Shown here: positions 23,114 to 33,590 of the stretch, in pieces
Layout of the letters: each line of letters opens with the position of its first letter
Position numbering within the stretch: position 1 is the stretch's first letter
Assembly: GCF_001428025.1 (NCBI RefSeq)
Contig: NZ_LMSC01000008.1
Coordinates: 190,545 to 224,134 of the forward strand
Source: Phycicoccus sp. Soil748
Lineage (GTDB): Bacteria; Actinomycetota; Actinomycetes; Actinomycetales; Dermatophilaceae
Length of the DNA: 33,590 bases
Reading direction: 5' to 3'
Made by a program: the position numbers and the translations under genes
The notes under the pieces: generated by a model
Told to the model about the DNA's origin: nothing
What the model saw: the letters and a program-made list of their open reading frames with translations, nothing else
Database searches by the model: none

Positions 23114-23132
<19 letters not shown>
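23089..23132. terminator. 18-bp perfect hairpin overlapping the hybrid kinase stop
   Basis: CCTCCGTGGTGGGGCCTG (23089-23106) pairs exactly with 23115-23132 around an 8-base loop. The right arm encodes the last residues (ALRGGA) of the kinase, so it serves as a bidirectional terminator between convergent genes. Confidence 0.85.
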
Positions 23133-26401
<3,269 letters not shown>

Positions 26402-26493
26402 CGATCAACGCCACCCAAGCACGGTCAAACACTCGTTTTCGAGACCAGACATCTGCACGCGGGCGAGCCTTCCGACAACCTGACCGCCGCCGC

Positions 26494-26499
26494 TAGCGT
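26494..26499 (+). promoter_or_regulatory. -10 element TAGCGT before the patatin gene
   Basis: TAGCGT would start transcription near 26506, leaving a short leader with GGGGG six bases before ATG 26534. Confidence 0.45.
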
Positions 26500-26533
26500 G
26501 GACGACCAGCCGACGCACCTCCGGGGGATGCCC

Positions 26534-28792
26534 ATGAGCACGGACCAGAACCCTCCGCTGACGGTCCCCGAGCCGCTCGGCCGGCCCGAGGCCTACGCGA
26601 GCCCTCCCGCCACCTGCGACGTCGTCATGAAGGGCGGCATCACCAGCGGCATCGTCTACCCGTGGGCCGTGTGCGACCTCGCGACCCGCTACCGCCTGGT
26701 CAACGTGGGTGGCACCTCGGCGGGGGCGATCGCTGCGGCGGCGGCCGCGGCAGCGGAGTACGGGCGGCACCGGCCCGGCGCCGGGTACCCGGTGCTCGCG
26801 GGGCTCCCGGGGGTGCTGGGTGGCACGCACCAGGGGCGGTCGCGGCTCTTCACGCTGTTCCAGCCCCAGCGCCGTACCGCGCCCCTGCACGCCCTGTTCG
26901 TCGCCTCGCTCGGAGGCGGTGGCGGTGGGTCACGGACCGGGCTGGCCCTGCGTGGCCTCCGCTCTGCCGCCATGGCCGCGGGCGGGTGGTGGCGCCTGCT
27001 CCTGGGGGCGCTTGCGGGCCTGCTGCTGCTGGTCGCCGCGGGCGCGTCCGGCGCGGCCTGGGGGCTGCTCGCCGTGGTGGCTGCCGTCGTCCTGGGTGCG
27101 GGGGTCGGGCGCCTGGTCGGTCGCGCGCCGGTGGCCCTGGGTGTCGCGGTGCTGGTCCTCGTGGCGGTCGTGGTCGCTGTCGGGGTCTCCGGGGCGGGGA
27201 CCTGGGCGACGACGCTCGTGGGCGTGCTCGGCTGGCTGCTCCTCGTGGTCGGACTGCTGGCCGGGACGGTCTGGGTGCTCGGCCGGGTGCTCCTGCGCGA
27301 CGTGCCCGACAACCTCTACGGGATGTGCAGCGGTATGGAGGGCGACGGGTTCGAGGGCAGCGCCGCGCTGACGCCCTGGCTCACCGACCTCCTCGACCGG
27401 GCGGCCGGCCTGCGGTCCGGTGCGGCGTCGGGTGCGGCGGCGGGTGCGGCGGAGAGGGGGCCGCTGACGTTCGGGCACCTCTGGGCCGGACCCGGTGCGC
27501 CTCGCATCGCGGGCACGGCTCGTCCCGAGTCGCCGGCGATCAACCTCGAGGTGATGACGACCTGCGTGACCCGCAGCCGTCCCTACCGCATGCCCTTCGA
27601 GTCCGTCGGGTTCTACGTCGACCCGGGGGGGCTGCGGCGGCTCTTCCCCCCGGCAGTGGTCGACTGGGTGCTGGCGCACCCCGCCCCGGTGGGCGGCTCG
27701 CCCACCGACCGCCGGCGCCGCCGGGTGGCCGACGAGCTGCTGGCCCCCCTCGTGCCCTTCCCCGCGGCAGCTGACGTGCCGGTCGTGGTGGCGGCCCGCA
27801 TGAGCCTGTCGTTCCCCGTCCTCATCAGCGCCGTGCCGCTGCACGCGGTGGACCGGGCCACCAACACCGAACCGCTCGACCGCATCAGCGCCGCCCTCAC
27901 GGCGGTCGCCACCGAACAGGCGACCGAGGCGGACGCCGCCCCGGGCGACCTGGTCTCCGAGGACGCGGTCGTGCGCGAGGCGGTCCGCCGGCTGCGGGCC
28001 GAAGGAGTCTCGCTGCGTGCCGACCGGGTGTGGTTCTCCGACGGCGGGATCACGAGCAACTTCCCCATCCACTTCTTCGACAGCTTCGCCCCGACGCGGC
28101 CGACGTTCGGCGTCAACCTGCGACCGCACCACCCGGCGCATCCGCCCGTTCCCGGTGACGAGTCGAGCTCGGTCTACCTGCCGATCGGCAACGGCGCGGG
28201 CCGCGCGCAGGCGCCCAACCTCTTCGACGCGGCGGGGCCGACGCTGCCGGGCTTCGCCAAGGCGATCCTGGACACCATGCAGAACTGGAACGACCTGCTC
28301 CAGCTGCCACTGCCGGGCTTCCGCGACCGGATCGCCCACGTCAGCCTGTCGCCCGAGGAGGGCGGCATGAACCTCGCCATGCCGCCTTCACGGATCGCGG
28401 CGCTCGCGCGCCGGGGTCAGCTGGCCGGCCAGGTCCTGCGGGAGCGGTTCTCGCTGCCCGGGGAGAACGGCTGGACCGGTTGGGAGAACCACCGGTGGCT
28501 GCGGCTGCGTACCAGCCTGTCACTGGTGGAGGTGGCCGGAGGACAGGTGGAGCGGGCCCTCGGCCCGGCCGGCAGCCACCCGGACGGAACCCACTCGTTC
28601 AAGGACCTGCTCGACCTGCCGGTGGGTGGCGCGCCGTCGTACAACTGGGAGAACCAGACGCAGCGCCGTCGCGCCCGTACTGCGGTCGCGGCGCTCGCCG
28701 GCGCCTCGCCGACCGACGTCCCGGAGACCCAGCGCCTCGGCCACAAGGCGCCGCAGCCCATGCCGGCGCTGCGGATCACCCCGCGCGAGTGA
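26534..28792 (+). CDS. Membrane patatin-like phospholipase
   Basis: 752 aa. Patatin parts: VVMKGGITSGIVYPWAVCDL (oxyanion loop), LVNVGGTSAGAIAAAAAAAA with nucleophile Ser 62 in GTSAG, ARMSLSFPVLISAVPL, and VWFSDGGITSNFPIHFFDSF with catalytic Asp 503 in DGG. About four hydrophobic helices (residues 152-170, 172-191, 198-218, 226-248) sit between the nucleophile and the Asp, an arrangement unlike soluble patatins. Activity should be lipid acyl hydrolysis at a membrane; the substrate is unknown. ATG 26534 has GGGGG at the right distance; ATG 26528 is also possible. The gene is divergent from the hybrid kinase and followed closely by a DUF2231 gene. Confidence 0.85.
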   Translation: MSTDQNPPLTVPEPLGRPEAYASPPATCDVVMKGGITSGIVYPWAVCDLATRYRLVNVGGTSAGAIAAAAAAAAEYGRHRPGAGYPVLAGLPGVLGGTHQGRSRLFTLFQPQRRTAPLHALFVASLGGGGGGSRTGLALRGLRSAAMAAGGWWRLLLGALAGLLLLVAAGASGAAWGLLAVVAAVVLGAGVGRLVGRAPVALGVAVLVLVAVVVAVGVSGAGTWATTLVGVLGWLLLVVGLLAGTVWVLGRVLLRDVPDNLYGMCSGMEGDGFEGSAALTPWLTDLLDRAAGLRSGAASGAAAGAAERGPLTFGHLWAGPGAPRIAGTARPESPAINLEVMTTCVTRSRPYRMPFESVGFYVDPGGLRRLFPPAVVDWVLAHPAPVGGSPTDRRRRRVADELLAPLVPFPAAADVPVVVAARMSLSFPVLISAVPLHAVDRATNTEPLDRISAALTAVATEQATEADAAPGDLVSEDAVVREAVRRLRAEGVSLRADRVWFSDGGITSNFPIHFFDSFAPTRPTFGVNLRPHHPAHPPVPGDESSSVYLPIGNGAGRAQAPNLFDAAGPTLPGFAKAILDTMQNWNDLLQLPLPGFRDRIAHVSLSPEEGGMNLAMPPSRIAALARRGQLAGQVLRERFSLPGENGWTGWENHRWLRLRTSLSLVEVAGGQVERALGPAGSHPDGTHSFKDLLDLPVGGAPSYNWENQTQRRRARTAVAALAGASPTDVPETQRLGHKAPQPMPALRITPRE

Positions 28793-28830
28793 CGGGTTTG
28801 GCGGGTGCGGTCCGGGGGCACTGGCCGGGC

Positions 28831-29463
28831 ATGACCTCCGCGACCGCCGACCACCTTCCCGACTCCACCCCGTCGGTCACCGTCGGGGCGCCGCTGCTCG
28901 TGCGCCTGGTGCAACAGCTGGAGCGCACCGCCGCGCTGGACCGCCTCGCCCCGGCCCTGGCAGGTCTGGCGTCACCCGCCGGGAGGGAGCCTCTGCAGCG
29001 GATCCTGCTGGGGCGGGACGTGGGGCATGCTCTGCACCCGTTCCTGACCGACCTGCCGATCGGGTTCTGGACCTCGAGCCTGGTCCTCGACCTGCTGGGT
29101 CATGGCAAGGACCGCCCAGCCTCCCGGCGCCTGCTGGCGGCCGGGTTGGCTGCGGCCGTGCCAGCCGCCGCCACGGGTCTGGCGGAGTGGCGGCAGACCT
29201 CGCGGCCGGAGACCAGGGTCGCGTCGGCGCACGGGACGCTCAACGTCCTGGCCCTGGGCCTGTATGCGGGTTCGCTCGCCACGCAGGAGCGGTCACCGCG
29301 CCTCGGCCTGGCGCTCAAGCTCGCCGGCACCGCGGTCACCGGGCTCTCGGGCTTCCTCGGCGGCCACCTCGTGGTGGCCCGCCGCACCGGCAGCCGCCAC
29401 CCTGCCTACCGGTCCGACGGCACCGGCCCCGTCCTCTCGCGCCCGGGCACCGCCACCGGCTGA
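28831..29463 (+). CDS. DUF2231 family membrane protein
   Basis: 210 aa with about four hydrophobic helices. The DUF2231 signature is HPFLTDLPIGFWTSSLVLDLLG; HGTLNVLALGLYAGSLATQER and GTAVTGLSGFLGGHLVVAR are typical later pieces, with the His residues in HGTLN and GGHLV resembling haem-ligand positions in distant homologues (inference). The N-terminal soluble part (SVTVGAPLLVRLVQQLERTAALDRLAPALAGLASP) is longer than in many members. It begins 38 bases after the patatin gene and is probably in the same operon. Redox or membrane-lipid roles are only guesses. Confidence 0.85.
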   Translation: MTSATADHLPDSTPSVTVGAPLLVRLVQQLERTAALDRLAPALAGLASPAGREPLQRILLGRDVGHALHPFLTDLPIGFWTSSLVLDLLGHGKDRPASRRLLAAGLAAAVPAAATGLAEWRQTSRPETRVASAHGTLNVLALGLYAGSLATQERSPRLGLALKLAGTAVTGLSGFLGGHLVVARRTGSRHPAYRSDGTGPVLSRPGTATG

Positions 29464-29473
29464 TCAGGCCGGG

Positions 29474-29800
29474 TCAGTGACGGCGCAGGACCGACCGCAG
29501 CACGAGGAAGAGCACGATCGCGAGGACCTGCCCACCGATCGCGACGCGGGTGACGTCGAGTGCCGGCTGCCACGAGACGTCGGGCCCCTTGACGACGAAG
29601 ACGCCGATCGGTCGCGCGTCCACCCCGCCTCCACCCCCCGACCCCTCGTTGGCCTCGGCCGTGCTGGTGCCCCCGCCCGCCCCTCCGCGGACACGGGCAA
29701 CCGGCACGATCAGCGTCCCGTCGTGCTCGATGGGTTCGCCGAACACACGCTTCACGGAGAGGTCACTGGTGACCTTCGACAGCAGTTCCTGGACGTCCAT
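29474..29800 (-). CDS. GerW/YtfJ family protein
   Basis: 108 aa. DVQELLSKVTSDLSVKRVFGEPIEHDGTLIVPVARVRGGAGGG is the hallmark of the sporulation-protein YtfJ/GerW family; the glycine-rich loop and VDARPIGVFVVKGPDVSWQPALDVTRV follow, then a C-terminal hydrophobic helix (VLAIVLFLVLRSVLRR) that probably anchors it. In Bacillus the relative is germination-linked, but in actinobacteria its role is not known to me. The start at ATG 29800 has TACGGT (29812-29807) six bases upstream, the same leaderless layout as other genes here. Converges with the DUF2231 gene, 10 bases apart. Confidence 0.88.
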   Translation of the reverse strand: MDVQELLSKVTSDLSVKRVFGEPIEHDGTLIVPVARVRGGAGGGTSTAEANEGSGGGGGVDARPIGVFVVKGPDVSWQPALDVTRVAIGGQVLAIVLFLVLRSVLRRH

Positions 29801-29806
29801 CCAGCC

Positions 29807-29812
29807 ACCGTA
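29807..29812 (-). promoter_or_regulatory. -10 element TACGGT, leaderless type
   Basis: On the minus strand TACGGT ends six bases before ATG 29800. Confidence 0.55.
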
Positions 29813-29833
29813 GGTCGGTCGAGGTGGACCGAC

Positions 29834-29853
29834 TCAGGGCCAAAGGGCCCTGA
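29834..29853 (-). terminator. Hairpin between the lipoprotein and GerW genes
   Basis: TCAGGGCC-AAAG-GGCCCTGA is an 8-bp stem with a four-base loop, about 29 bases beyond the lipoprotein stop and upstream of the GerW promoter. No U tract. Confidence 0.6.
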
Positions 29854-29881
29854 TGCTCAGGCGGCCGGTGAGGTCTGGCAC

Positions 29882-30268
29882 TCAAGAGCAGGTGCGGGTG
29901 AAGGCGGTGGCGCCCCGCCGCAGCTCGAACCGCTCTCGATGGCCCTTGTCGTCGGAGAAGATGATGACGCTTCCGCTGCGGGTGACCCGGCCTGCCTGGT
30001 ACGGGTTGTCCCATCCCCTGGGTGGGTTGCCGCTGCCGTCGTCGAGGAGCCCGCCCACACGCTCGTAGAACCTGCCGTCGACCTGCAGCTCGTCGATCCC
30101 GCAATGCGTGTAGAGCGAGAACGCCTGGCCGCCCGAGTCGACCGACCGGGGCGCCACCGGGCTCACGGGTTCGTTGGGCAGGTGGGTCGGAGCGCCGCCA
30201 CATCCGGTCAGCACGACCAGCAGCGCCGAGAGGGCAGAGCACCGGAGCGCGAGGGTGCGTGTCGTCAT
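29882..30268 (-). CDS. Small putative lipoprotein
   Basis: 128 aa, no recognised family. A signal peptide (TTRTLALRCSALSALLVVL) ends in lipobox LTGC with Cys 23, so it should be lipid-anchored outside the membrane. The mature part has SLYTHCGIDELQVDGRFYER, PPRGWDNPYQAGRVT, and IIFSDDKGHRERFELRRGAT, and ends with a second cysteine (FTRTCS); the two cysteines could form a disulfide. ATG 30268 is the likely start. Confidence 0.75.
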   Translation of the reverse strand: MTTRTLALRCSALSALLVVLTGCGGAPTHLPNEPVSPVAPRSVDSGGQAFSLYTHCGIDELQVDGRFYERVGGLLDDGSGNPPRGWDNPYQAGRVTRSGSVIIFSDDKGHRERFELRRGATAFTRTCS

Positions 30269-30335
30269 GCCGAAGGGACGCCCCGCTGGGGCCGGTGGTT
30301 CCCCACCCTCACGAGGGCCTCGTGTGGGCTGCCGT

Positions 30336-30382
30336 CAGGAAGGACGAGACCCGCAGGCCAGTGGTCTCGCCTGCGGGTTCAC
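30336..30382. repeat. Hairpin and imperfect direct repeat, left copy
   Basis: ACCCGCAGGC (30349-30358) pairs with GCCTGCGGGT (30369-30378). The whole 47-bp block resembles 33065-33111 (36 of the first 44 bases identical by eye, including the loop) in the same orientation. The right copy is the terminator next to the tRNA-Phe fragment. Confidence 0.6.
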
Positions 30383-30401
30383 AGGGGGCTGCTCGGCTAA
30401 T

Positions 30402-30432
30402 CGCAAGTGAAATTGCGCAAATCTGCTTGCGC
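30402..30432. promoter_or_regulatory. Two overlapping inverted repeats, likely regulator operator
   Basis: CGCAA-N6-TTGCG (30402-30417) and GCGCAA-N6-TTGCGC (30415-30432) share the half-site TTGCG with the same 6-base spacer. They lie about 50 bases before the ArsR-like regulator gene, the classic place for autoregulation. Confidence 0.6.
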
Positions 30433-30483
30433 GTTCGCTGCGTGCACGGCATCGTGGGCTTCGTGTCCGACGACTCTCCGCGC

Positions 30484-31110
30484 ATGTCCCCCACGAGGAT
30501 CTCCGACCCCAAAGCGGTCCTCGCGGTCACGCATCCGCTGAGAATGCGACTGCTCGGCGAGTTGTCGCGGCGGGGGACGGCTCGCGTCGTGGATCTGGCC
30601 AGTGGTCTTGGCGAGCCGGCGAACTCGGTCAGTTTCCATCTCCGGCAGCTGGCCAAGTACGGGTTGATCGAGGAGAACCCCGAGCGGTCCGAGAACGGGC
30701 GGGAACGCTGGTGGCGCATGACGTCCGACCGAGGCTTCGAGATCGACCTCGATGCGATGCGGCAGCTCGAGGGCGGGGAGGCCGCGGTAGGTGTCCTTCG
30801 CCGCGTCGCCGAAGGCCACGTGCTCGCGCTGCATCGCGCCATCCAGGAGCCACCGGCCCCCGCCGACCTCCCCAGCGGCCAGCAACGCACGATCAGCGAC
30901 GACTTCGCGGTGCGCCTCAGCGACACCGAACTCCAGCAGATGCGCCGCGAGTTCGCGGAGCTCCTCGACCGCTGGACCGACACCTCCCGCACCCTGAACG
31001 ACGTCGACGACGGCGTGGAGCGCCGCGCCTACTACGGAGTCGTCATGGCCGCCCTCGTCGAGGACATCGGCGCCACCACGTACGGACCTCCCAAGGAGCA
31101 GCAGCAATGA
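30484..31110 (+). CDS. ArsR-like winged-helix transcriptional regulator
   Basis: 208 aa. The N-terminal winged helix-turn-helix is clear: ISDPKAVLAVTHPLRMRLLGELSRR, ARVVDLASGLGEPANSVSFH and LRQLAKYGLIEENPERSENG, with the recognition helix at SVSFHLRQL. The C-terminal half is a long helical part (VLRRVAEGHVLALHRAIQE, DTELQQMRREFAELLDRWTD), not typical for small ArsR metal sensors, and no cysteine metal site is present. ATG 30484 is chosen; GTG 30463 would add seven residues and has no Shine-Dalgarno. Its TGA overlaps the ATG of the methyltransferase (31107-31110). Two operator-like repeats precede it. Confidence 0.85.
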   Translation: MSPTRISDPKAVLAVTHPLRMRLLGELSRRGTARVVDLASGLGEPANSVSFHLRQLAKYGLIEENPERSENGRERWWRMTSDRGFEIDLDAMRQLEGGEAAVGVLRRVAEGHVLALHRAIQEPPAPADLPSGQQRTISDDFAVRLSDTELQQMRREFAELLDRWTDTSRTLNDVDDGVERRAYYGVVMAALVEDIGATTYGPPKEQQQ

Positions 31111-31820
31111 CCAGCACCGACGCCGTCACCTCTAGAGCCCCTGACTACGACGGCTTTGCGGCCACGTACGCCTCCGCCAACGACAACAGCCTGTTCAACG
31201 CCTGGTACGCCCGACCCGAGATGCTCCGCCTAGCCGGGGACGTCAGGGGAAAACGGGTCTTGGACGCAGGTTGCGGCCACGGCCCTCTCATGGTGGCGCT
31301 GCGCGACCACGGCGCCGTCGTGGCCGGGTTCGACCTCAGCCCAGCGATGATCGACATCGCTGCGGACCGCCTCGGCAGCGACTCGGACGTCCGGGTCGCC
31401 GACCTCTCCGCACCGCTTCCATACGACGACGATGAGTTCGACGTCGTCACCTGCTCACTGGCTCTGCACTACGTGCAGGATTGGGCACCGGCCCTTGCGG
31501 AGCTGCGCCGTGTGCTCAAGCCCGGTGGGCGGCTGGTGGTATCGATCATCCACCCCTTCGTCTACGCATTCTGCTACCAGGACGAGGACTACTTCGCCCT
31601 GACCCGGTACTCCGAGGACTACGAGCACGACGGCGCCACGTTCACCCTCACCTACTGGCACCGACCACTGCAGGACGTCATCAACGCGTTCCTCAACGCC
31701 GGCCTCGTCATCACCAGTGCCACCGAGCCTGCTGCGGATCCAGACACTCCCACCGAGCTCCTACCCTCTGAGGGGCGCCGCTTCATCTGCTTCTTGTTCT
31801 TCGCCCTCGAGTCGCCATGA
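31107..31820 (+). CDS. Class I SAM-dependent methyltransferase
   Basis: 237 aa. Motif I KRVLDAGCGHGPLMVALRDHG, motif II VVAGFDLSPAMIDIAADRLG, DLSAPLPYDDDEFDVVTCSL with ALHYVQDW (motif IV), and LAELRRVLKPGGRLVVSIIHP are all intact, so it should bind SAM. The C-terminal part (YEHDGATFTLTYWHRPLQDV, FLNAGLVITSATEPAADPD) resembles the Methyltransf_11/UbiE-like group acting on small molecules; the substrate is unknown. Translationally coupled on both sides: ATGA with the regulator and ATGA with the next gene (31817-31820). AAGGAG lies before the start. Second gene of the three-gene operon. Confidence 0.9.
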   Translation: MTSTDAVTSRAPDYDGFAATYASANDNSLFNAWYARPEMLRLAGDVRGKRVLDAGCGHGPLMVALRDHGAVVAGFDLSPAMIDIAADRLGSDSDVRVADLSAPLPYDDDEFDVVTCSLALHYVQDWAPALAELRRVLKPGGRLVVSIIHPFVYAFCYQDEDYFALTRYSEDYEHDGATFTLTYWHRPLQDVINAFLNAGLVITSATEPAADPDTPTELLPSEGRRFICFLFFALESP

Positions 31821-32416
31821 CGGGACCGGCCGTCGTCGACCTCGACCACCTCGAGCCCGGGCTGCGGGCATGGGTGGAAAGCCTGGCAACCTCCGGACCG
31901 GTGCTCCTTCGCCGCGACGGGCAGACCATCGCCACCCTCACGTACTCCTCCGCAGTTCTCGAGGGCACCATCGTCCCCGCCCCTGCGACCAAACACGCGA
32001 CTAAGGGCAGCGACCTGCGCGAGGGCGCCAAGGTCCTGGCGACGACGATGCGCCTCAGCGGTCCCGCACGCGAACTGCTGCGCCAGTCCTTCGGCCTGGA
32101 CTGGGTCGTCCTCGATTTCCACGACGCCCCGGACACCGCCGATGTCGTTCTCACCTGTGCGCACAGCCCTCAGCTCACCCACCGTTGGACCCTGCTCTTC
32201 CCGCACGCACAGATCATCGTCACCGAGATCCTCGACCCCGAGTTCGGCCTCGACATGCCGGGTCCCGTCGGCCGCTTGCTCGATGCGGGCGCCCACGCCT
32301 ACCTACCACCGAAACCACTCGAGCAGGTGGCCAAGAACGTGCAGCTCTATCTCGCTGGCCGAGCACACGGCGCACTCGGCTCGTCACCACCCGCGACCCA
32401 CCAGCTCGACTCTTGA
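31817..32416 (+). CDS. Unknown two-part protein coupled to the methyltransferase
   Basis: 199 aa, not recognised. Its first 45 residues (VDLDHLEPGLRAWVESLATS then GPVLLRRDGQTIATLTYSS) look like Phd/YefM antitoxin N-termini, where a helix is followed by a strand-turn RRDGxxxA element. A linker follows. The last 85 residues (DWVVLDFHDAPDTADVVLTC, PHAQIIVTEILDPEF, GRLLDAGAHAYLPPKPLEQV, AKNVQLYLAG) resemble a response-regulator receiver fold, with DAGAHAYLPPKP like the usual EAGADDYLxKP and Lys before Pro. The phosphoacceptor Asp is not certain. Both resemblances are inference from short motifs. ATG overlaps the methyltransferase stop, so the three genes should act together. Confidence 0.7.
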   Translation: MTGPAVVDLDHLEPGLRAWVESLATSGPVLLRRDGQTIATLTYSSAVLEGTIVPAPATKHATKGSDLREGAKVLATTMRLSGPARELLRQSFGLDWVVLDFHDAPDTADVVLTCAHSPQLTHRWTLLFPHAQIIVTEILDPEFGLDMPGPVGRLLDAGAHAYLPPKPLEQVAKNVQLYLAGRAHGALGSSPPATHQLDS

Positions 32417-32493
32417 CAGCATCGCGGCCCCCGGCGGATCGCGCCGAGCCGATCAAATCTCCCGGTCAACTGTCGCGCGGAAGGGCTCGAGGT

Positions 32494-32967
32494 ATGTCCG
32501 TCATAGGGCCACTTAACTTGGCAGACCTTGAGACCCTGATCGCAGTGCAGCGAGAGGGCGCGGTCGCGAGCCTCGGCCATATCTTCCCGCAGAAGACGCA
32601 TCCTTTCCCTGAGCACCAGGTTCGTGAGGGGTGGAAGCGTGAGATCGCTGACCCCGATGTTGACTGCTTCGTCATCAACGACGCCGGACGAGTGGCTGGA
32701 TTCGCCGCGACGCGAGCTGATGAGCTCCTGCACTTCGGTACGGCTGTCTCGACCTGGGGCACTGGGCTCGCCGGTCTCGCTCATACGGAGCTTCTGGAGC
32801 ACCTGAGGGCGAAAGGGCACCGAGAGATCTTTCTGAGAGTCTTCGACGAGAACACGCGCGCTACCCGCTTCTACCTACGGCGCGGGTGGGTCCGAACTGA
32901 CGAAACCACGCGAACCACCTTCCCCCCGCATCCGACGCTACGACGCTACGAGCAGCGACTCCCATGA
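32494..32967 (+). CDS. GNAT family N-acetyltransferase
   Basis: 157 aa. Seen are DLETLIAVQREGAVASLGHI, the beta strand CFVINDAGRVAGFAATRADE, the acetyl-CoA region STWGTGLAGLAHTELLEHLRAKGHREIFLRVFDENTRATRFYLRRG, ending WVRTDETTRT. The pyrophosphate loop WGTGLAG is a degenerate form of the usual R/QxxGxG/A, so activity is likely but not certain. ATG 32494 follows GGAAGG. Codon use is less GC-biased than in the purine genes (tta, ctt, cat and agg codons are seen), consistent with transferred DNA. The gene stands 77 bases after the three-gene operon. Confidence 0.85.
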   Translation: MSVIGPLNLADLETLIAVQREGAVASLGHIFPQKTHPFPEHQVREGWKREIADPDVDCFVINDAGRVAGFAATRADELLHFGTAVSTWGTGLAGLAHTELLEHLRAKGHREIFLRVFDENTRATRFYLRRGWVRTDETTRTTFPPHPTLRRYEQRLP

Positions 32968-33064
32968 CGTCCGGAACTCCCGCAGTCCGGTCGCGCCGAC
33001 GACTGCACGGTTCCCATACTGGCGAAGTGCCCGCCGCAAGAAAAAGCGTTAGCAGGAGCGACCC
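32968..33064. other. Intergenic stretch with one GTTAGCA copy
   Basis: No gene is seen. It contains AAAAAGCGTTAGCAGGAGCG at 33041-33060, including GTTAGCA (33048-33054), a word repeated on the other side of the tRNA fragment. Confidence 0.4.
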
Positions 33065-33111
33065 CGGGAAGCACGAAACCCGCGGGCCAGTGCTCTGACC
33101 TGCGGGCTTGT
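33065..33111 (-). terminator. tRNA-Phe terminator hairpin and right copy of a direct repeat
   Basis: CCCGC (33080-33084) and GCGGG (33102-33106) form the outer stem of a hairpin that begins immediately after the CCA end of the tRNA fragment on the minus strand. The block resembles 30336-30382. Confidence 0.55.
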
Positions 33112-33155
33112 GGTGGCCAGGGGCGGGGTCGAACCGCCGACCTTCCGATTTTCAG
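33111..33155 (-). tRNA. 3' fragment of tRNA-Phe (att site, no 5' half)
   Basis: Read on the minus strand the 45 bases begin in the anticodon loop CTGAAAA (anticodon GAA), continue TCGG, AAGGTC, then a perfect T arm GGCGG-TTCGACC-CCGCC and the acceptor strand CCTGGCC, A, CCA. They closely match actinobacterial tRNA-Phe, which starts GGCCAGG. Bases beyond 33155 do not supply the anticodon 5' stem, D arm or acceptor 5' strand, so the gene is cut at the anticodon. This is how tRNA-Phe appears at the far junction of an integrated element. It is not a functional tRNA. Confidence 0.85.
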
Positions 33156-33590
33156 GAGTTCGGAGGGGGTCTAGAGGGGCTTCGTTGGTCCGAATTCGTG
33201 CTCAGCAGAGGGAAGTCCAGTCCGGTGTCGTCCGTGATTTCGGATGTCCGTGTTAGCAAATCCGTTAGCAAGATCCGCCCTGGTGACCACGCGGGTCTGC
33301 GCAGTGACCCGGGCCAAACAGACGGAAGGGTGACCCGCTGCGATGCGGGTGTGGAGCCGGCCGAACGGGTCTGAGAACCACGCGACCGACGGCGGTGAGG
33401 GCTGGGGCTTGCGGCAGCCAGGCACGCGCCGGCCCCTGCCGTCACCAGCGCAGTAAAGGGTGAGGTGGCCGGAGCTGAGGGCGGCGTCCTGGTACTGGTC
33501 CGGGGCGCGACTTCTTTGTCTGTTGGTGTGGGGTGCGGTGGGGTGCGCGAGGACGGCGCGCCAGCGCCGCCCGCAGCGCGGGGCCCCATC
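33156..33590. other. Element-side sequence with two GTTAGCA copies; no gene seen
   Basis: GTTAGCA occurs at 33252-33258 and 33264-33270, 12 bases apart, matching the copy at 33048-33054. Minus-strand frames are open to the right edge in more than one phase, but none has a protein-like sequence, so no coding call is made. Inference: the left end of an integrated element. Confidence 0.4.

Follow-up and report, generated by a model that had tools for sequence, protein, structure and literature searches.

A tRNA-Phe 3' fragment as the far junction of an AICE-like element, probably within a layered island, in Phycicoccus sp. Soil748

A tRNA gene fragment that lacks its 5' half raises the questions of what was inserted beside it, on which side the insertion lies, and where the native chromosome begins. 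We addressed these questions for a piece of tRNA-Phe near the right edge of a 33,590-nucleotide stretch of Phycicoccus sp. Soil748 DNA (the window; G000:C8:190545-224134), which comes from a genome of 3.97 Mb in 12 contigs. An initial annotation, made from the letters of the window, had read this piece as the end of a target gene displaced by an integrated element, with chromosome to its left and the element to its right, outside the window. We followed the locus beyond the window (L003, C8:222500-241500, in which a position equals the window position minus 31955) and compared it across 11 genomes of the genus, the source genome G000 included. The features inside the window are collected in Table 1.

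Table 1. Features at and around the tRNA-Phe fragment, in window coordinates
Feature	Position	Strand	Basis or remark
PAS-domain gene, native neighbour of tRNA-Phe in short-interval relatives	23114..26401	-	ORF; PAS Pfam matches in the first 234 residues
Further non-native block (patatin-like, DUF2231, HTH, methyltransferase and GNAT genes)	26436..33050		Missing in G003, G004 and G009; left edge approximate
Third copy of the terminator hairpin, possible older scar	30344..30377	-	Pattern search
Probable remnant resembling the last part of a related integrase gene (20 codons plus a stop); overlaps the terminator; GTTAGCA at 33048-33054	33036..33098	+	tblastn
Terminator hairpin behind the fragment	33073..33106	-	37/40 bases as in the intact tRNA-Phe terminator, 39/40 as in the G003 terminator
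45-base tRNA-Phe 3' fragment at the far junction, the target gene's displaced end	33111..33155	-	45/45 identity to the intact gene
Left end of the 13.3-kb element	33156..33590		Remainder beyond the window, to C8:237015
GTTAGCA repeat pair a short way into the element; probably an integrase arm site	33252..33270	+	Pair pattern found twice in the genome

ARAGORN called no tRNA gene in the window, which identifies the window copy as a fragment, and it called an intact tRNA-Phe at L003:14472-14548 (C8:236971-237047, minus strand). Identity between the two runs from the first base of the anticodon loop (CTGAAAA) through CCA and into the terminator hairpin, and the full match covers 105 bases at 92% (E 1.9e-38). 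Because a 27-base core pattern, with up to three mismatches allowed, occurs at only two places in the 3.97-Mb genome, the match is not a chance one. Both copies have the same strand and orientation, the intact gene lies to the right of the fragment, and their anticodon-loop starts are 13,316 bp apart. The fragment was therefore correctly named from the outset, and the intact tRNA-Phe predicted for the other end of the element, which is also the second copy of the 45 bases sought within about 200 kb, was found 13.3 kb to the right.

Between the intact tRNA-Phe and the displaced 3' fragment lies an element of 13.3 kb as assembled, four assembly Ns included. The tyrosine recombinase gene expected nearby encodes 423 aa (L003:13188-14459), ends beside the intact tRNA-Phe, and has Pfam arm-binding, SAM-like and catalytic domains (PF00589, 66.8 bits). 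Upstream of it are an excisionase ORF (L003:12955-13188, TIGR01764) and a RepSA initiator (PF20199, 458 bits), which scored 319 bits with the NCBIfam RepSA model, under the cut-off of 700; the rep gene is interrupted by an N. An apparent fusion of Rep and excisionase in a 686-aa ORF was rejected because this N falls where the RepSA match stops; the excisionase stands alone, and, by reading of the translation, a Rep-like C terminus appears to continue past the N in another frame. The cargo consists of a Na/Ca exchanger-type protein, a DUF1622 protein, a MarR regulator, an SDR oxidoreductase and a GH15 protein, and there is also a QcrB-type respiratory cytochrome b (L003:4200-6062; NF050120, 726 bits against a cut-off of 500), which is unusual as cargo. 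By its predicted genes, namely a site-specific tyrosine integrase, an excisionase, a RepSA-type replication gene and cargo, the element is AICE-like and of the pSAM2 type.

A search for an FtsK/SpoIIIE-like transfer gene with PF01580 gave 10 matches genome-wide and none inside the assembled element, where the four Ns could hide sequence; the sole match on this contig, at C8:255392, is outside the element. That match and an integrase-like one about 3 kb away (G000:C8:255392-258912) lie roughly 18 kb to the right of the element and possibly represent a second AICE able to supply transfer functions. A similar FtsK/SpoIIIE-like and integrase-like pair is present at C6:470165-473776. Collections of plasmids and phages (98 and 857 records) held only distant integrases, every best place being under 60% identity, and a scan of genome contigs confirmed one relative among 31 candidate stretches, with 65% in its best segment, in a Micrococcales metagenome-assembled genome (MAG).

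The initial annotation had relied on the native terminator for the direction of the insertion. The fragment does retain CCA and a terminator, but this observation was incomplete, as a near-identical terminator (37 of 40 bases) is found at the intact tRNA-Phe, inside the end of the element. Of the two copies of the tRNA 3' half with its terminator, the one at the intact gene is on the element's side, and the integrase reading frame passes through this terminator to a stop 12 bp before the intact tRNA. Since the element brings its own copy and both ends carry a terminator, the terminator is uninformative on direction. Hairpins of this type number three in the genome, counted within three mismatches of a pattern written from the three copies themselves.

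Direction was established by synteny, by the position of the integrase and by paired GTTAGCA repeats at both ends, all of which agree with the earlier placement of the element to the right of the fragment. The integrase gene is left of the intact tRNA-Phe, and right of that tRNA the DNA is conserved in four relatives; tRNA-Asp and tRNA-Glu genes follow about 1.2 kb beyond it, as they do in L011, L013 and L025. Blocks of C8 are collinear with G001, G003, G004 and G005. On the left side, G001, G003 and G004 align up to C8 216891-216905 (window 26347-26361) and G005 up to 213533, and on the right alignment resumes between C8 236930 and 237207, leaving conserved synteny on both sides of a gap from C8 216905 to about 236930.

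GTTAGCA occurs five times in L003 against 0.39 expected, a count that none of 200 shuffles reached, and the pair pattern (TGCTAAC-N5-TGCTAAC on the tRNA strand) occurs in this genome at two places, the one in the window and one at the integrase end. The pairs start 101 bp (integrase side) and 115 bp (opposite side) from the anticodon-loop start; in the relative G002 the values are 104 and 114 bp. Across 98 genomes the pattern was found at 17 places in nine genomes, against three for a reversed control pattern. At 11 of the 17 places the fetched locus contained a tRNA gene (five Phe, one site being counted twice since it has two pairs, two Met, two Gln, one Arg and one Thr), with 57-71 bp from tRNA end to pair in nine of these and 94 and 98 bp in the other two. 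A relative of the element's integrase, or a piece of one, was likewise present at 11 of the 17. Two of the six places without a tRNA gene, in G000 and G002, are far junctions beside tRNA-Phe fragments; the others are in G005, G017, G025 and G066. pSAM2 has arm sites. The pairs described here are probably integrase arm sites, with excisionase sites as a possible alternative.

The claim that chromosome lies left of about 33155 did not withstand comparison with the genus. The PAS gene, which could be placed in 10 of the 11 genomes, is 0.2-0.4 kb from tRNA-Phe in G003, G004 and G009 and 20 kb from it here; because these two genes adjoin in those three genomes, the roughly 6.6 kb between the fragment and the PAS gene is further non-native DNA. 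GC content is 67.9% in the element, 70.9% in the 6.6-kb block, and 72.7% and 72.3% in the flanks. G003, G004 and G009, which are other species, provide the empty site for which related genomes were to be searched. Among the 11 genomes the PAS-tRNA-Phe interval is short in these three, longer in four (G000; G008, 4.4 kb; G007, 4.9 kb; G001, 41 kb), and not measurable in G002, G005, G006 and G010. Extra tRNA-Phe fragments were found in the examined regions of four of the 11 (G000, G002, G006 and G010), that of G010 being upstream of its tRNA and so a misfit to a simple far junction, and no second fragment was found in the examined regions of G001, G007 and G008, three of the four genomes that have a longer interval on one contig, which counts against the reading that we favour.

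Two of these relatives have arrangements of their own. In G002 (C11:42082-101631), 59 kb separate an intact tRNA-Phe from a fragment of 47 bases; each end has arm pairs, and the integrase is at the far end, away from tRNA-Phe. In G006 (C7:42197-63265), three consecutive tRNA-Phe 3' fragments precede the PAS gene, which suggests a deeper array of insertions.

We also considered the genes of the 6.6-kb block individually. The GNAT gene, which lies left of the fragment, was rejected as a native neighbour: it has matches in 10 of the 11 genus genomes, G000 included, and only the copy in G000 is near tRNA-Phe. Matches to the patatin-like gene were found in three of 39 genomes, the source genome included, and in G003 the match is about 0.4 Mb from tRNA-Phe. 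The product of this gene is a 753-aa protein (window 26531-28792), whose longer ORF gave a weak patatin match of 23.5 bits, under the Pfam cut-off, and no PADLOC or NCBIfam match. PADLOC, run on nine proteins, returned weak CRISPR-regulator matches for the HTH protein and a mad2 match of 77 bits limited to the methyltransferase region, which we do not read as a defence system.

The DNA directly left of the fragment resembles the end of the integrase gene. By tblastn the match is 66.7% over residues 403-423, in the frame of the integrase end, with an E-value of 4e-5 that is not independent of the att repeat, the tail partly overlapping the terminator. Agreement outside the hairpin is 27 of 36 bases, compared with a score of 26 for the element's own pair at 33252 and 21 for the best unrelated place in the window; in G003, where the interval is short and the terminator agrees at 39 of 40 bases, there is no GTTAGCA at the corresponding place. 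This tail is probably the remnant of an earlier related element, which would make the fragment's left flank itself a scar. The third terminator may be an older scar; it was rejected as an att site of its own, having no adjoining tRNA sequence. Two results count against reading the 6.6-kb block as an older element: no tRNA-Phe fragment was found at its outer edge, and no integrase or Rep remnant was found within it (best E 0.41). Site-specific integration is accordingly given here as a candidate route for the arrival of the block. A comparable array is present in the Micrococcales MAG (L122), where an integrase is accompanied by two arm pairs and by another two tRNA-Phe-like fragments.

These observations bear on three other explanations of the locus. 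A simple junction would have one element on the right and native chromosome immediately to the left of 33155. In its favour, the terminator that follows the fragment agrees with that of the short-interval genome G003 at 39 of 40 bases, and no second fragment was found further left. Against it, the 6.6 kb is missing from the PAS-tRNA-Phe interval of G003, G004 and G009, and the left flank holds the integrase-like tail with its GTTAGCA. The explanation is already weakened, and we consider it distinctly unlikely. The tail might instead have arisen by gene conversion between the two att repeats, with no older element. The repeats exceed 100 bp, share a strand and are 13.3 kb apart, which favours exchange; differences, however, rise gradually away from the tRNA (45/45, 37/40 and then 27/36 bases in agreement), whereas recent conversion would leave a sharp edge, and conversion leaves the 6.6-kb block unexplained. 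On balance, gene conversion seems rather improbable.

A scaffolding error would have the DNA to the right of the window misplaced. A single N directly follows window base 33590, and at C8:190544 such an N takes the place of about 64 bases present in relatives. Against this, the GTTAGCA pair at 33252-33270, which lies left of the N, has its match at the integrase end, the pattern occurring nowhere else in the genome, and conserved blocks keep their order on both sides of the island. We hold misplacement to be very improbable indeed.

We conclude that the fragment is, with high probability, the far junction of a 13.3-kb element of the AICE kind at a site that had been used before, and that this junction lies within a layered island. 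At the anticodon loop of the tRNA-Phe gene, the integrase would have recombined this gene with attP, acting through a core in the anticodon stem-loop and through GTTAGCA arm pairs that start 101-115 bp from the loop start. Earlier use of the tRNA-Phe site has good support, because the integrase-like tail and about 6.6 kb of further non-native DNA follow the fragment; it would place the junction within a layered island rather than at the boundary of the native chromosome. More tentatively, the paired GTTAGCA could be a conserved arm address of a group of integrases, with arm sites and spacing constant while the core target varies among tRNA-Phe, Met, Gln, Arg and Thr, and the element, having replication and integration genes and no transfer gene, could be moved in trans by resident FtsK-bearing AICEs, a proposal that we think may well prove wrong.

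The kind of element, the kind of site and the accretion are already known, and this locus is an ordinary but well-resolved example of them. pMEA100 and pMLP1 also use tRNA-Phe. AICEs are described with RepSA, a tyrosine integrase and sites at tRNA 3' ends, tandem insertions among them, and closely related AICE integrases use different tRNAs (PMC3218068). The element is like the RepSA/pSAM2-type AICEs of that account in its integrase, excisionase, RepSA and insertion at a tRNA 3' end, and differs in its metabolic cargo and in having no FtsK-like gene in the assembled sequence, with its four Ns (PMC3218068). Accretion of AICEs at one tRNA, including a remnant without traB, is described in Streptomyces (PMC9513070); both cases have successive elements and a remnant without a transfer gene beside one tRNA, which is tRNA-Arg there and tRNA-Phe here, and for the older layer at the present locus no outer repeat was recognised. 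Displaced tRNA fragments and an anticodon-loop subsite are catalogued in Islander, and the present island, with a regenerated tRNA, a displaced 3' fragment, that subsite and an integrase, differs in nothing essential (PMC4383910). A similar 45-bp tRNA 3'-end repeat appears in PMC2647930. The locus has what defines a tRNA island: an intact tRNA, a fragment in the same orientation, an integrase between them and an empty site in other species.

What the analysis adds is modest, a paired repeat beside five different tRNA genes, for which a single word search of the literature brought up no printed counterpart. The paired motif could serve as a signature of element ends. The presence of a terminator behind a tRNA fragment is not enough to separate chromosome from element, as an element may carry a terminator together with the tRNA 3' half, and the DNA past a displaced fragment may be an older insertion.
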